From Flavobacteriia bacterium (GTDB lineage Bacteria; Bacteroidota; Bacteroidia; Flavobacteriales_D; Crocinitomicaceae), in contig CANGZT010000001.1 of the NCBI GenBank assembly GCA_947458955.1, positions 1 to 32,699 of the forward strand: a DNA stretch of 32,699 bases, in the 5' to 3' direction. Made by a program: the position numbers and the translations under genes. Shown in pieces: positions 1 to 31,479 of the stretch (its first letter is position 1; each line of letters starts with the position of its first letter). Below the pieces are notes generated by a model. It made no database searches and was not told where the DNA came from. It saw only the letters and a list, made by a program, of their open reading frames with translations.

Positions 1-146
1 CTTCGTGGAAGACATGAGACTTTAGAAGCTAAGTTATAAGTAGGGTGTTTTTGTCCGGTTTATAATCGAAAATCAATCAAAAACTAAACATGTAGAAGCC
101 TTGAAAATTCTATGTTTGGACGAGGGTTCGATTCCCTCCGGCTCCA
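1..146 (+). ncRNA. ssrA: tmRNA (SsrA), 3' part only
   Basis: This is the 3' portion of transfer-messenger RNA, which rescues stalled ribosomes and tags incomplete proteins; the 5' part and the tag-peptide frame lie outside the window. Positions 124-140 form the T-arm with its GGTTCGATTCC loop core, followed by the acceptor end GGCTCCA. The preceding stretch around positions 88-120 (ACATGTAGAAGCC...TTTGGAC) follows the usual tmRNA order of a CATGTAG-like segment before the acceptor half. The CCA tail is not encoded, since the genome continues CTTA. A terminator follows directly. The tmRNA 3' end is a frequent integration site for genomic islands, which matters for the genes downstream. Confidence 0.93.
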
Positions 147-162
147 CTTATAGAAAAAAAAT

Positions 163-22988: not shown

Positions 22989-24440
22989 ATGGAGTCTGCT
23001 GTTAGTTATGAGAAAGTTTTGAATGACCATGTTCAAAAGGAGCGTGCTGCGGTTGTGTTAGCAAGCAAAACAGGTGAGTTGTTGTACGACAAAGGAATTG
23101 AGTTAGTACTTTTTAGAAATCATTTATTAGACAGAACGGTTTCTGAATTACTAAACTTACATGACTATGCTAAAAATGTTGTAGGTAAAGAAATTGATGT
23201 GTTTACTTCTTCTGAATTAGCTACAGAAATTTACAATATGAACTTAGCTCCTGCTAAATTAGACATCGGTAAACTTTCAGCTGAGTGGATTTCGCAAAAA
23301 GATAAATATGCATCTAAAAGAGAATTTTTAGATAGCAAATTAGCTGGTTTTAACGTTGTTTCTAACGATCCAATTGAGCCTAGAGATGTAGTTTTATATG
23401 GTTTCGGACGTATCGGTAGATTGGCAGCAAGAGAATTAATCACTCAAGCTGGAAAAGGACAACAATTACGTTTACGTGCTATTGTTACTCGTGGTGCTAC
23501 AGATAAAGATATTATTAAAAGAGCAGCATTAATGAAAAATGATTCAGTTCATGGTGCTTTCAAAGGTACAGTTGAAGTGGATTTAGAAAAAAGAGCTCTG
23601 ATTATTAATGGACAAATTGTTCAAATGATTGATGCTCCAACACCTGAAGAAGTTGATTATACTTCATACGGCATCAATAATGCTTTACTAATTGATAATA
23701 CTGGTGCTTTTACAAATAGAGAAGCATTATCAAGACATTTAAAAGCTAAAGGAGTAGATAAAGTATTATTAACAGCTCCAGGAAAAGAGATTCCAAATGT
23801 TGTTTATGGTATAAACCAAGTAGAATTAGACTTAGAAAATGAAAATATCTTCTCGGCTGCTTCTTGTACTACAAATGCAATTTCTCCAATTCTGAAAGTG
23901 ATCAATGATCATTTAGGAGTTGTTAAAGGACATATTGAAACGGTTCATGCATATACAAATGACCAAAACTTGTTAGACAATATGCATAAGAGCTCTCGTC
24001 GTGGTCGTTCTGCTGCTATTAACATGGTAATTACATCAACTGGTGCAGGAAATGCTGTTACTAAAGTAATTCCAAGCTTAAAAGATAAATTGACTGCTAA
24101 CGCAGTGCGTGTACCAACTCCAAATGGTTCATTGGCAATCTTAAATTTAAATGTAGCAAAGAAAACGAATGTAGAAGAAATCAACGCTATGTTAAAAGAC
24201 GCTGCTTTAAATGGCGATTTGGTAAATCAGATTTTTTACTCTTTCGATCCTGAATTAGTTTCAAGTGATATTATCGGTAATACTTGTTGTTCAGTATATG
24301 ATTCAAACGCAACAATTGTTTCTCCTGATCAAGAAAACATTGTATTGTATGTATGGTATGATAATGAATTTGGTTATACAAAACAAGTAATTCGTTTAGC
24401 TAAGTACATTACTAAAGTACAACGTAAGATTTATTATTAA
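22989..24440 (+). CDS. Long-form glyceraldehyde-3-phosphate dehydrogenase
   Basis: A 483-residue GAPDH with a roughly 130-residue N-terminal extension that matches no domain I recognise. The Rossmann loop is YGFGRIGR (138-144), the catalytic pair is Cys293 (SAASCTTN) and His320, 27 residues apart as in all GAPDHs, and the end WYDNEFGYTKQVIRL is typical. The Asp that normally binds the adenosine ribose of NAD (in the VAxND segment of the classical enzyme at 30472) is replaced by a longer RAIVTRGATDKD loop. This suggests NADP use or a gluconeogenic role, by inference from the GapB case. The gene stands between two terminators, so it is its own transcript. Confidence 0.9.
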   Translation: MESAVSYEKVLNDHVQKERAAVVLASKTGELLYDKGIELVLFRNHLLDRTVSELLNLHDYAKNVVGKEIDVFTSSELATEIYNMNLAPAKLDIGKLSAEWISQKDKYASKREFLDSKLAGFNVVSNDPIEPRDVVLYGFGRIGRLAARELITQAGKGQQLRLRAIVTRGATDKDIIKRAALMKNDSVHGAFKGTVEVDLEKRALIINGQIVQMIDAPTPEEVDYTSYGINNALLIDNTGAFTNREALSRHLKAKGVDKVLLTAPGKEIPNVVYGINQVELDLENENIFSAASCTTNAISPILKVINDHLGVVKGHIETVHAYTNDQNLLDNMHKSSRRGRSAAINMVITSTGAGNAVTKVIPSLKDKLTANAVRVPTPNGSLAILNLNVAKKTNVEEINAMLKDAALNGDLVNQIFYSFDPELVSSDIIGNTCCSVYDSNATIVSPDQENIVLYVWYDNEFGYTKQVIRLAKYITKVQRKIYY

Positions 24441-24657: not shown

Positions 24658-26436
24658 CTATTTACCATCCATTTTATCTTTCAATGCTGATAAAGCATCT
24701 AAATCACCTAAAGTAGATTTTTCAGTACTTTGGTTGATTGCTTTTACAGCTTGTGCTGTTGTGTTTCCACCTTTTTTAGCCGTAGATGCAGTTGGTTTAT
24801 CATCACCTTCTTCAAATGTACGTGTGTGAGAAACAACGATTTTCTTTGATTCTTTGTTGAATTCAATTACTTTAAAGTCTAGTGTTTCTTCAACTTTAGC
24901 ATTAGATCCGTCTGCTTTCTTTAAATGTTTAGCAGGGCAAATTCCTTCAACACCATAAGGTAAAGAAACGATACCAGATTTATCTTTAGTTTCGATTATT
25001 GTACCTTGGTGAACCGAACCTTCTCCAAAGATTGTTTCAAAAACATCCCAAGGATTTTCTTCTAATTGTTTATGTCCTAAAGAAATTCTTCTGTTTTCAC
25101 GATCGATTTCTAAAACAACAACTTGCATTTCGTCACCAACTTTACAGAATTCAGAAGGGTGTTTGATTTTCTTTTGCCAAGATAAATCAGAGATATGAAT
25201 CAATCCGTCAACACCTTCTTCTAATTCAACGAATACTCCAAAGTTTGTGAAGTTACGTACTTTAGCATTGTGTTTAGAACCTACTGAATATCTTCCTTCA
25301 ATATCCATCCATGGATCTGGCATTAATTGCTTAATACCTAAAGACATTTTTCTTTCTTCTCTATCTAAAGTTAAAACAACTGCTTCAACAGTATCACCTA
25401 CATTCATGAAATCTTGTGCAGTACGTAAATGTTGTGACCAGCTCATTTCTGAAACGTGAATCAAACCTTCAACACCAGGTGCGATTTCTACGAATGCTCC
25501 ATAATCAGCTAAAACTACAACTTTTCCAGATACTTTATCACCTACACTTACGTTAGCATCTAAAGCATCCCAAGGATGTGCTTGTAATTGTTTTAAACCA
25601 AGAGCGATACGTTTTTTGTCATCGTCAAAATCAAGAATTACAACATTTAATTTTTGATCTAATTCAACAATTTCTTCAGGGTGATTAACACGTCCCCAAG
25701 ATAGATCAGTGATGTGAATTAAACCATCAACTCCTCCTAAGTCAATGAAAACTCCATAAGAAGTGATGTTTTTAACAGTTCCTTCCAATACTTGACCTTT
25801 CTCAAGACCAGAAATAATTTGTTTTTTCTGTTCTTCTAACTCAGCTTCAATAAGAGCTTTGTGAGAAACAACAACATTACGGAATTCTTGGTTGATTTTA
25901 ACAACTTTAAACTCCATGTTTTTACCAACGTAAACATCGTAATCACGAATTGGTTTAACGTCAATTTGAGATCCAGGTAAGAATGCCTCAATTCCGAAAA
26001 CGTCAACGATAAGACCTCCTTTAGTACGACATTTAACATAACCTGTAATCACTTCTCCAGAACGTAAAACATCATTCACACGAATCCACGCTTTGTGCAT
26101 ACGAGCTGTTTTGTGAGAAATAATTAATTGTCCTGCTTTGTCTTCTTGACACTCAACATAAACGTCTACAGTGTCTCCAACTTTTAAATCAGGATTGTAA
26201 CGGAATTCACTAATTGGAACAACTCCTTCAGATTTGTAACCAACGTTAATTACCGCTTCACGCTTTGTTAAAACTACAACTGTACCCTCAATTACTTCTT
26301 TTTCATTGATTGAACTTAATGTAGCCTCGTACTTGTCAGCATATTCTGAACGTTGTACTTGAGTGTAACCGTCGTGCGCTAATGCATCCCAGTCGAAATC
26401 AGCAACTCCTTGCCCTGTTAAATTGTTATTTGCCAT
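24658..26436 (-). CDS. rpsA: 30S ribosomal protein S1
   Basis: A 592-residue protein with six consecutive S1 (OB-fold) RNA-binding repeats spanning about residues 45-545. Repeats 3 to 5 are the most regular, each with a GVFI/VxLGGVDGLIH-like strand pair (YGVFIDLGGVDGLIHITDLSW, YGAFVEIAPGVEGLIHVSEMSW, FGVFVELEEGVDGLIHISDLSW). The first two and the last are more diverged, as in other S1 proteins. The C-terminal 45 residues are charged and low complexity. S1 helps unwind and dock mRNA on the 30S subunit; it is of special weight in Bacteroidota, whose genes mostly lack Shine-Dalgarno sites. The leader upstream holds a striking pseudoknot-capable structure. Confidence 0.97.
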   Translation of the reverse strand: MANNNLTGQGVADFDWDALAHDGYTQVQRSEYADKYEATLSSINEKEVIEGTVVVLTKREAVINVGYKSEGVVPISEFRYNPDLKVGDTVDVYVECQEDKAGQLIISHKTARMHKAWIRVNDVLRSGEVITGYVKCRTKGGLIVDVFGIEAFLPGSQIDVKPIRDYDVYVGKNMEFKVVKINQEFRNVVVSHKALIEAELEEQKKQIISGLEKGQVLEGTVKNITSYGVFIDLGGVDGLIHITDLSWGRVNHPEEIVELDQKLNVVILDFDDDKKRIALGLKQLQAHPWDALDANVSVGDKVSGKVVVLADYGAFVEIAPGVEGLIHVSEMSWSQHLRTAQDFMNVGDTVEAVVLTLDREERKMSLGIKQLMPDPWMDIEGRYSVGSKHNAKVRNFTNFGVFVELEEGVDGLIHISDLSWQKKIKHPSEFCKVGDEMQVVVLEIDRENRRISLGHKQLEENPWDVFETIFGEGSVHQGTIIETKDKSGIVSLPYGVEGICPAKHLKKADGSNAKVEETLDFKVIEFNKESKKIVVSHTRTFEEGDDKPTASTAKKGGNTTAQAVKAINQSTEKSTLGDLDALSALKDKMDGK

Positions 26437-26514
26437 TTGGCTTTTATAAATTGTATTTCGTTAAAACCCCAATTAACGAAAGGATGAATACTACTGCTTT
26501 GGGGTTGGCAGTTA
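26437..26514 (-). promoter_or_regulatory. Structured rpsA leader, candidate autoregulatory RNA
   Basis: Read on the minus strand, four segments occur in the order a, b, a', b'. Segment a is AACCCCAA (26506-26499), b is TTTCGTTAA (26481-26473), a' is TTGGGGTT (26472-26465) and b' is TTAACGAAA (26464-26456). b and b' form a perfect 9-bp hairpin with a' as its 8-nt loop; a' is perfectly complementary to a. The two pairings give either an H-type pseudoknot or mutually exclusive hairpins. b' ends 19 nt before the start codon. E. coli S1 is known to repress its own leader; control of the same kind here is inferred. Confidence 0.6.
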
Positions 26515-26520
26515 TTGTTA

Positions 26521-26528
26521 CAAATTTA
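26521..26528 (-). promoter_or_regulatory. Candidate -7 element of the rpsA promoter
   Basis: TAAATTTG on the minus strand fits TAnnTTTG. Start of transcription would be near 26514, placing the structured segment a at about +8. No good -33 TTTG is visible upstream, so support is partial. Confidence 0.45.
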
Positions 26529-26595
26529 GTAATCTTTATTGAAATAATTGAGTGTTTTAGTGTATAATAACAAACAATTTATCTTTAAAAAATAA

Positions 26596-27246
26596 TTACA
26601 GTGTTTTTAAATCACTAATAGTTTTAGATGGATTGGGAGAATTAAAAACAAAGCTACCAGCAACAAGAGCATCGGCTCCAGCTAAGACTAATTCTTTACC
26701 TGTTTCTAAATTAACTCCACCATCTACCTCAATAATTAATTTTGGATTTTTAATATTTGCAATTTTACGCAATTCAGCAACTTTGTTTAAAGCATTGGGA
26801 ATGAATTTTTGTCCACCAAAACCAGGATTTACAGACATGATTAGTACTAAATCTAATTCTGAAATAATATCATTTAAAAATGATACTGGGGTATGCGGAT
26901 TTAATGCTACACCTGCTTTCATTCCTGTTTGTTTTATAGCTTGAATGGTTCTGTGAAGGTGTGTACAAGCTTCATAATGAACAGTTAAGATATCGACACC
27001 TAAATCTTTAAATGTGTTTATGTAAGAATCAGGATTTTGAATCATAATATGTACATCTAGTGGTTTTTTTGCATGTTTTTTAACAGCTTCGATGATCGGG
27101 AAACCAAAAGAAATATTAGGAACAAAAACTCCATCCATTACATCTAAATGAAACCAATCTGCTTGACTTTTATTAATCATTTCTACATCGCGTTGCATGT
27201 TTGCGAAATCACACGATAATAGGGAAGGGGATATAATTATTGACAT
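26596..27246 (-). CDS. rpe: Ribulose-phosphate 3-epimerase
   Basis: A 216-residue TIM-barrel enzyme interconverting ribulose 5-phosphate and xylulose 5-phosphate in the pentose phosphate pathway. SPSLLSCDFANM opens the barrel, WFHLDVMDGVFVPNISFG carries the metal-ligand His33 and the catalytic Asp35, LDVHIMI another His, VNPGFGGQKF the phosphate-binding loop, and EVDGGVN a second catalytic Asp. Length is normal. It lies upstream of rpsA on the same strand, but 159 nt and a separate promoter element separate the two. A TATTTTTG sequence (27268-27261, minus strand) may be its own -7 box. Confidence 0.97.
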   Translation of the reverse strand: MSIIISPSLLSCDFANMQRDVEMINKSQADWFHLDVMDGVFVPNISFGFPIIEAVKKHAKKPLDVHIMIQNPDSYINTFKDLGVDILTVHYEACTHLHRTIQAIKQTGMKAGVALNPHTPVSFLNDIISELDLVLIMSVNPGFGGQKFIPNALNKVAELRKIANIKNPKLIIEVDGGVNLETGKELVLAGADALVAGSFVFNSPNPSKTISDLKTL

Positions 27247-30471: not shown

Positions 30472-31479
30472 TTATAGTATTTCAACCAAATTTATTAATC
30501 TATTTGAATAACCTGCTTCGTTATCATACCAACCAACCAACTTAATCATATTTCCAATTACACTTGTTAATTCACTATCGAAGATTACACTAGACGAGTT
30601 ACCAATAATGTCGACTGATACAATCGGATCTTCTGTATAGCTAAGAATTCCTTTCATGTAGGTTTCTGAAGCGATTTTAAAAGCTTGATTAATTTCTTCT
30701 ACTGTTGGTGGATCTGAAACTATTAAAGTTAAGTCTGTTAAGCTACCATCTGGAACGGGTACCCTCATTCCACACCCTCCAAAATGATTTTCAAGTTCTG
30801 GATATATCTTAGTTAATGCTTTGGCAGCTCCAGTTGAAGTTGGTACAATGGATAATGATGCTGCTCTTGCTCTTCGTAAGTCTTTGTGAGGTGAATCATG
30901 TAAACGTTGATCTGTAGTAAAACTATGAATAGTTGTAATATACGCACTTTCGATATGAGTAAGTTTTCTGATTACCTCTATCATTGGAGCGGCAGAATTT
31001 GTCGTACAAGAGGCATTAGAAATAATTTTATCACCAGGTTCTAATAGAGATTCATTTACACCAAGTACTACGGTTTTAGTTTCGTCATCATTTGCTGGTG
31101 CACTTAAAATTACCTTCTTTAAATTTGGGTTTAAATCAAAATGTTTGCTGGCTTTTTCTTGAGTTAAGAATAAACCGGTTGATTCTAAGACATAACTCAC
31201 ATTGTATTTTTCCCAATGGATTAATGAAGGGTCTTTTTCTTGTATAAAAAGAATTTTCTTACCATTTTCGAATACTAGCGAATTATCCTGAATCTCAAAT
31301 TTCAACCCTACTCCACCATGAATACTATCATATTTAAGTAAGTGTGCAAGTGTTTTTATATCAGATAGATCGTTTACAACTGCAACATTTACATTTGGGT
31401 TAGATAAACTTAAACGTGTAAAATACCTACCAATTCTTCCAAACCCATTTACTCCTACAATTTTGACATGATTTTCCAT
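30472..31479 (-). CDS. gapA: Glyceraldehyde-3-phosphate dehydrogenase, classical form
   Basis: A 335-residue type I GAPDH, which oxidises and phosphorylates glyceraldehyde 3-phosphate in glycolysis. NGFGRIGR (11-18) is the dinucleotide loop and VVNDLSD keeps Asp37, the NAD-selecting residue. Cys158 (SNASCTTN) and His185 are the catalytic pair, STGAAKAL and GCGMRVPVPDGSLTDL are substrate motifs, and WYDNEAGYSNRLINL closes the protein. It is a second GAPDH besides the long form at 22989, and differs from it in the cofactor site. Only 11 nt separate it from the stop of the upstream secreted-protein gene, so read-through is likely. Confidence 0.94.
   Translation of the reverse strand: MENHVKIVGVNGFGRIGRYFTRLSLSNPNVNVAVVNDLSDIKTLAHLLKYDSIHGGVGLKFEIQDNSLVFENGKKILFIQEKDPSLIHWEKYNVSYVLESTGLFLTQEKASKHFDLNPNLKKVILSAPANDDETKTVVLGVNESLLEPGDKIISNASCTTNSAAPMIEVIRKLTHIESAYITTIHSFTTDQRLHDSPHKDLRRARAASLSIVPTSTGAAKALTKIYPELENHFGGCGMRVPVPDGSLTDLTLIVSDPPTVEEINQAFKIASETYMKGILSYTEDPIVSVDIIGNSSSVIFDSELTSVIGNMIKLVGWYDNEAGYSNRLINLVEIL

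Follow-up and report, generated by a model that had tools for sequence, protein, structure and literature searches.

The window, a 32,699-nt stretch of a Flavobacteriia genome (contig CANGZT010000001.1), carries rpsA on the minus strand at 26436–24658. The gene encodes ribosomal protein bS1 (592 aa), and its start codon is at 26436. Upstream on the same strand lies a gene that we take, from its sequence, to encode ribulose-phosphate epimerase (27246–26596). rpsA has a promoter-like box of its own and is the only gene behind it. The −7 consensus of Bacteroidota is TAnnTTTG, and a pattern scan found the −7-like element TAAATTTG at 26528–26521 on the minus strand. The RNA start is predicted a few nucleotides downstream of this box. 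Bacteroidota mRNAs lack Shine-Dalgarno (SD) sites, and S1 recruits mRNA to the 30S subunit. The rpsA leader of the window was read for an AGGAGG-like stretch and had none, so it lacks a canonical SD. Elsewhere, a tmRNA gene runs off the window edge, leaving its 3' part (1–149, plus strand, 76.7 bits), with a terminator-like inverted repeat after it at about 165–200. Two further genes (22989–24440, 483 aa; 30472–31479, 335 aa) presumably encode glyceraldehyde-3-phosphate dehydrogenase-like proteins, as recognised by sequence.

The original prediction had placed a 9-bp hairpin and an interlocked 8-bp match ahead of rpsA. Both were exact on the minus strand. Read 5' to 3' on that strand, the leader starts with the 5' strand of helix P1 (ACUGC, 26512–26508), close to which the predicted RNA start would lie. 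The P1 loop contains the 5' strand of helix P3 (AACCCCAA, 26506–26499), and the 3' strand of P1 follows (GCAGU, 26497–26493). The two hairpins are separated by an 11-nt linker (26492–26482), which is A/U-rich in relatives and whose last nucleotide, directly before P2, is C in 93% of leaders. P2 is the 9-bp hairpin. Its 5' strand is UUUCGUUAA (also given as TTTCGTTAA; 26481–26473) and its 3' strand is UUAACGAAA (also given as TTAACGAAA; 26464–26456). The entire P2 loop, UUGGGGUU (26472–26465), is the 3' strand of P3. As claimed earlier, this loop was exactly the second half of the 8-bp match (TTGGGGTT), and the hairpin foot was 19 nt before the ATG. An unpaired 19-nt spacer (26455–26437) reaches the start codon and has a conserved UACAA at its 5' end. 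UACAA was found directly 3' of P2 in 148 of 157 leaders, a count that is partly selected because the search anchor was [AG][AU]ACA. P2 was assigned as an exact hairpin, P3 as an exact match, and P1 by minimum-energy folding and fold comparison; all three were also assigned by covariation.

The minimum-energy fold of 26514–26420 formed P2 together with P1. The original prediction had described P2 and P3 correctly and understated the structure, as it lacked the strand and the third helix, P1. It had read the leader as pseudoknot-capable. The interlocked helices were there, but P1 encloses the 5' half of P3, which makes the fold a pair of kissing hairpins and not a plain pseudoknot. We conclude with near certainty that the rpsA leader consists of two hairpins (P1 and P2) joined by a loop–loop kissing helix (P3). 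The ColE1 RNA I/RNA II kissing complex also has loops of about 7 or 8 nt that pair fully; the likeness is in shape only, that complex being intermolecular and plasmid-borne.

A switching leader, the other earlier suggestion, was not supported. P1, P2 and P3 use disjoint nucleotides, indicating a fixed fold rather than a switch. These separate nucleotides, together with a linker long enough for stacked helices, led us to reject switching between P3 and the hairpins. With a rough estimate of 6.5 Å per linker nucleotide and 2.8 Å per base pair, linker reach left slack in 72 of 72 folds, six doubtful folds having been dropped beforehand. Linker length did not track helix length (Spearman −0.05).

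The leader was compared with shuffled sequences and with the rest of the window. When the 92-nt leader was shuffled 20,000 times with its dinucleotides preserved, only 1 shuffle had both a 9-bp hairpin and an 8-nt upstream match to its loop, in agreement with the earlier claim that their joint occurrence by chance is unlikely. Among 1,086 tiles of 120 nt on both strands, a similar motif occurred elsewhere only in tiles at about 120–270. These tiles correspond to the inverted repeat after the tmRNA. The fold energy of the single leader was unremarkable (z = −1.55; 16 of 200 shuffles were equally stable), so the case for structure rests on comparison.

For comparison, 80 loci were sampled, including Fluviicola, Brumimicrobium, Crocinitomix catalasitica, a Lishizhenia MAG, and many Crocinitomicaceae or Flavobacteriales MAGs. 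Titles such as Chryseobacterium gleum or Chitinophaga pinensis appear wrong for the MAGs that bear them, given how close their S1 is to that of the window. The leader was readable in 79 of the 80 loci; L059 starts inside the gene. Of 80 family leaders, 74 had the −7 pattern 60–140 nt ahead of the start codon, vs 11 of 80 on the reverse strand. In 69 of 78 leaders a box was found within 50 nt upstream of P1, and the first P1 nucleotide followed it by 6–35 nt. A transcription start downstream of 26499, which the original prediction had named as incompatible with its reading, is unlikely because of the −7-like box at 26528–26521.

MAFFT alone misaligned P1, and a smaller set and covariance models were therefore used. 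The fold script misplaced L029, L048, L064, and L075, gave a doubtful P1 in L014 and L018, and returned no fold in L050 and L063. The first covariance model was built on 14 leaders and described P1 and P2, with P3 not included. It gave 72 matches at E ≤ 1 in 81 sources (the 80 loci and the window; 601,603 bases). All 72 were within the rpsA leader, 9–16 nt before the start codon. A second model (R2), built on those 72, gave six further matches and left L059, L063, and L064 without one.

In the 72-row alignment (71 distinct leaders), 90.1% of the P1 and P2 pair cells were standard pairs, and two-sided (compensatory) changes were observed in 18 of the 19 pairs. The covariation score of P1 and P2 was 0.594, compared with 0.230 (sd 0.011) after shuffling, and slid pairings did not exceed 0.158; the alignment was fitted to P1 and P2 and so leans towards these helices. 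The P2 base covaried as UUUC/GAAA, UCUC/GAGA, UUCU/AGAA, UUCC/GGAA, and UCCC/GGGA. P3 was outside the model. It was paired in 81.3% of cells, vs 27–66% for slid versions, and had 74 two-sided cells, vs 31.6 (sd 5.9) in shuffles. Two of five P3 measures were not above shuffles: pairs with a double change were reached by 353 of 500 shuffles and further pair types by 330 of 500. P3 has only six variable pairs, which leaves these two measures little room to differ. The original prediction had made its case depend on covariation of its two helices in related genomes, and compensatory changes were found in both P2 and P3.

Alignment-free tests were also performed. When loops were swapped between leaders, the mean P3 energy went from −10.95 kcal/mol (native) to −7.57 kcal/mol. 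The native P3 was within the best 5% of swaps in 38 of 77 family leaders and 26 of 80 other leaders; the leaders are related and not independent, and the p-value of this swap test therefore cannot be read as a probability. On the same energy scale, native P1 averaged −9.59 vs −5.17 swapped in the family and −8.48 vs −4.82 elsewhere, and was within the best 5% of swaps in 54 of 77 family leaders and 37 of 77 others. P1, P2, and P3 were then scored jointly against 100 dinucleotide shuffles of each leader. In this joint test, p ≤ 0.05 was reached by 77 of the 78 family leaders, by 38 of 42 leaders in the other families of the order, and by 35 of 74 in the rest of the class; the other 39 of the 74 did not reach it. 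Family leaders L050 and L063, which gave no fold, were excluded from it, as were 21 leaders of less than 60 nt and four loci that lacked a start codon. A scan that omitted P1 and used 60 shuffles gave weaker results. Among 154 leaders, 132 different P3 5' strands were found. The P2 foot lay 16–21 nt from the start codon in 74 of 77 family leaders (75 of 78 in a separate family count) and in 59 of 77 of the others, the search being open to distances of about 12–36 nt. Covariation and this nearly constant distance to the AUG bear out a conserved leader structure ahead of rpsA. The predicted architecture is kept across many families while the stem letters changed.

The R2 model was run on 150 family genomes. 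At E ≤ 0.001 it gave 110 matches in 108 genomes, all 110 ahead of rpsA. On the same strand and directly before the gene were 106 of them, with a gap of 7–22 nt in 103 and of 75–115 nt in three, whose S1 is N-terminally extended. The remaining four were at or near contig ends, and an S1 N-terminus then followed. Forty-two genomes had no R2 match; seven of them had no rpsA at the cut-off, three had only a 5'-truncated rpsA, and 32 were searched locally. The element was present in 29 of these 32 rpsA upstream stretches (E up to 0.06), and thus in 137 of 140 family genomes with a readable leader. The local search gave no match in the rpsA upstream stretches of G003, G020, and G025. The window's own genome had a single R2 match even at E ≤ 10.

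Some genomes differed in gene copy or gene start. G045 and G101 each contain two rpsA copies, every copy with its own leader and match. The copies in G045 are nearly mirror-placed on one contig, which may reflect assembly or binning effects. An N-terminal extension of S1 was seen in L063, L064, L069–L074, L076, L080, and many order and class loci; in other genera S1 is short. Where read, the extension is rich in Lys, Glu, and Ala, and the leader lies ahead of the extended start.

Beyond the family, rpsA was mapped in 98 of 100 order genomes and 98 of 99 genomes of the class sample, and most leaders were read. R2, trained on one family, matched 39 of 96 non-family loci at E ≤ 1, all in the rpsA leader. 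Thirty-eight of these were placed by script and one (L190) by eye, as the script chose the wrong start codon. Over 395 phylum genomes, R2 matched only the window's own genome. An element confined to the family, as this sole match would suggest, was rejected: direct reading of the leaders showed that R2 had lost sensitivity.

A third model (R3) was built from the 39 non-family matches. It is insensitive and misses the window's own genome. At E ≤ 0.01, with one match per genome, R3 matched 33 of 150 order genomes and 15 of 395 class genomes (G011 and G015 are in both). The match was ahead of rpsA in 33 of 33 and 15 of 15 cases, in G702 by N-terminal sequence only, since the contig ends after an S1-like N-terminus. 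Thirty order and eight class matches were on the same strand upstream of the mapped rpsA, 12–496 nt before the S1 similarity. The long gaps would fit N-terminal extensions. Of the ten matches other than these, nine (all except that in G702) had an in-frame ATG 10–23 nt downstream, open into S1. Judged from sequence, other families have the same architecture built from different stem sequences.

Several Bacteroidia families had another kind of rpsA leader. An AGGAG-like sequence near the start codon was found in 11 of 137 non-family leaders with a placed start (141 read). These AAGGAG/AGGAGG leaders are L208, L209, L211, L217, L218, L219, L266, L272, L273, L275, and L277. Ten of the eleven, at 27–51 nt, fell below the length needed for the joint test. 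For L219, the remaining one, no promoter box was found and the default 100 nt was taken; it gave p = 0.93. A TTG start was chosen in five of them: L211 (f4), L217 (f88), L218, L219, and L266 (f65). By eye, L210 and L270 also belong to this kind; in both, a TTG start precedes the one picked by the script. Since some families have a short SD-like leader instead, the kissing-hairpin device is not universal. In the available part of one study, SD-bearing ribosomal genes of Bacteroidia are listed without rpsA (PMC9976891).

One genus outside the family, g30, could be related to known structures. By alignment count, its S1 shares 571 of 575 positions with PDB chain 9zcd_A. Its uS2 matches one PDB sequence, which is found in five entries (9zcd, 9oy8, 9oz9, 9ozn, and 9ozz), implying that 9zcd is a ribosome or small-subunit entry. 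PDB 9zcd includes bS1. It was absent among the best 50 PDB fold matches of the predicted S1 structure (entries released by 8 April 2026). From these protein sequences we infer that g30 is Flavobacterium, whose ribosomes have been studied (PMC9976891, in the part available). The g30 leader keeps P2 and a P3 of 7–8 bp (GAGUUUC/GAAACUC, or GGGUUUU/AAAACCC in L229); by eye, its P1 is interrupted by a UU/UU internal loop. In the joint test, six Flavobacterium-type leaders (f6) gave mixed results, with p from 0.01 to 0.25. A kissing-hairpin leader is probably present in this Flavobacterium-type genus.

The leader was compared with known RNA families. The original prediction had matched it to no named family, and an Rfam 15 search of 26380–26600 gave only chance-level matches, none above its gathering score (best, SNORA21 with 13.6 bits, gathering 80). 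In 20 relatives no leader matched Rfam either; the sole match above cut-off was Flavo-1, upstream of the leader. This Flavo-1 RNA (L207:19–94, 58.1 bits, gathering 42) belongs to a Flavobacterium-type genome, where it directly precedes the rpsA promoter region. In a search of the open-access literature, we found no description of an rpsA leader of Bacteroidota.

Several described systems resemble the leader in part. The rpsA translation initiation region of gamma-proteobacteria (E. coli bS1) belongs to the same gene and has a structured SD-less leader with presumed competition between free and 30S-bound bS1 (PMC10931766). As described there, it has a specific fold with AU-rich single strands that is kept in several families of this class; kissing loops are unmentioned in the available part, and the likeness is by description only. 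The rpsO (uS15) operators of E. coli and mycobacteria are likewise ribosomal-protein leaders that act as pseudoknots; a kissing-loops form was proposed in M. tuberculosis, and a pseudoknot lies upstream of the start in M. smegmatis (PMC8470358, in part). They differ in binding uS15, in a U-G/C-G recognition motif and in their SD-containing mRNAs (PMC8470358). The present leader precedes rpsA and does not belong to the H-type rpsO pseudoknot leaders. Eckert and Weinberg (2020) reported 20 ribosomal-leader candidates from the same kind of discovery, including S4, S15, S16, and L13 leaders in Flavobacteria or Bacteroidia (PMC7247131). Their table, in the part available, holds no S1/rpsA leader, and the terms rpsA, bS1, and pseudoknot are absent from the main text (PMC7247131). 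Autoregulation of rpsU (bS21) through an extended SD in Flavobacteriales also concerns a self-regulating small-subunit gene under initiation control in an SD-less phylum (PMC9976891). It works by SD pairing, with no folded leader in the account available (PMC9976891).

A ribosomal-protein leader should lie specifically ahead of the gene of that protein, and rpsA was the gene behind every checked model match (110/110, 33/33, and 15/15). We consider it rather likely that the element is such a leader and that bS1 represses its own mRNA through it. bS1 would be the likeliest ligand because rpsA is alone behind its own promoter-like box, following the "only gene" logic (PMC7247131, as far as available). 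The exclusive place ahead of rpsA and the known liking of S1 for pseudoknots and AU-rich single strands also point to bS1. Both kinds of RNA have been described as its high-affinity targets (PMC10931766). In F. johnsoniae, initiation on an SD-less mRNA rose with purified bS1, whereas initiation on rpsU hardly did (PMC9976891). In gamma-proteobacteria, bS1 represses its own SD-less mRNA, with free and 30S-bound protein competing (PMC10931766). By analogy, a 30S subunit carrying bS1 would load on the open spacer beside the folded RNA. Once bS1 outnumbers the ribosomes, unbound bS1 would hold the kissing pair and its A/U-rich flanks, and loading would be blocked. With the P2 foot at about the point where mRNA leaves the 30S subunit, a locked fold could prevent docking and a melted fold could favour it. 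bS1 synthesis would thereby track ribosome number. The conserved single-stranded motif in the leader is short, which counts against a bS1 operator.

The main alternative, which we regard as somewhat unlikely, is a docking or enhancer element without feedback. The kissing hairpins would fix the shape of the leader beside the mRNA exit of the 30S subunit, and bS1 and the platform would load the SD-less mRNA efficiently. The nearly constant spacing from P2 foot to AUG fits such an element, and the SD-like short rpsA leaders of some families look like an alternative loading route. bS1 is also described as opening up structured leaders so that translation can begin (PMC8470358), and the fold could therefore help expression instead of repressing it. 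A general enhancer should, however, serve other highly expressed genes, whereas every checked match was ahead of rpsA.

Next to bS1 repression, the leader might be an operator for a ligand other than bS1 (uS2, bS21, another ribosomal protein, or a small molecule) that sets the bS1 level. The adenine riboswitch, too, contains a kissing loop (PMC4464220). We consider this improbable, as rpsA was the only gene found behind the element and no metabolic gene was. About as improbable is a 5'-end stabiliser, in which P1 near the predicted RNA end, with P2 and P3, shields the mRNA from decay. It accords with the first P1 nucleotide being 6–35 nt after the −7 box in 69 of 78 leaders, but a stabiliser needs no loop–loop helix and no fixed AUG distance and would not be limited to one gene. 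Chance complementarity, or a constraint other than RNA (a promoter or protein site in the DNA), fits the modest single-sequence z of −1.55 and can practically be dismissed in view of the compensatory changes, shuffle tests, and swap tests.

Returning to bS1 repression, a broader form of it is tentatively put forward as a possibility. The kissing hairpins may be an ancient bS1 sensor of Bacteroidia. bS1 would read the 3D fold, with stems free to drift, together with UACAA, the foot at the 30S exit site, and S1 would thereby be kept in tight homeostasis in a phylum that lacks SD pairing. Lineages that lost the sensor would have switched rpsA to a short SD-like leader. If so, two unrelated initiation controls would have replaced one another at rpsA. 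The element would be a ribosomal leader defined by a loop–loop helix, a shape that nested covariance models omit. A conserved leader before the S1 gene bears on how SD-less Bacteroidota choose and control their messages. Because it is probably also present in a genus that can be cultivated and manipulated genetically, control of S1 in this phylum can be tested directly.
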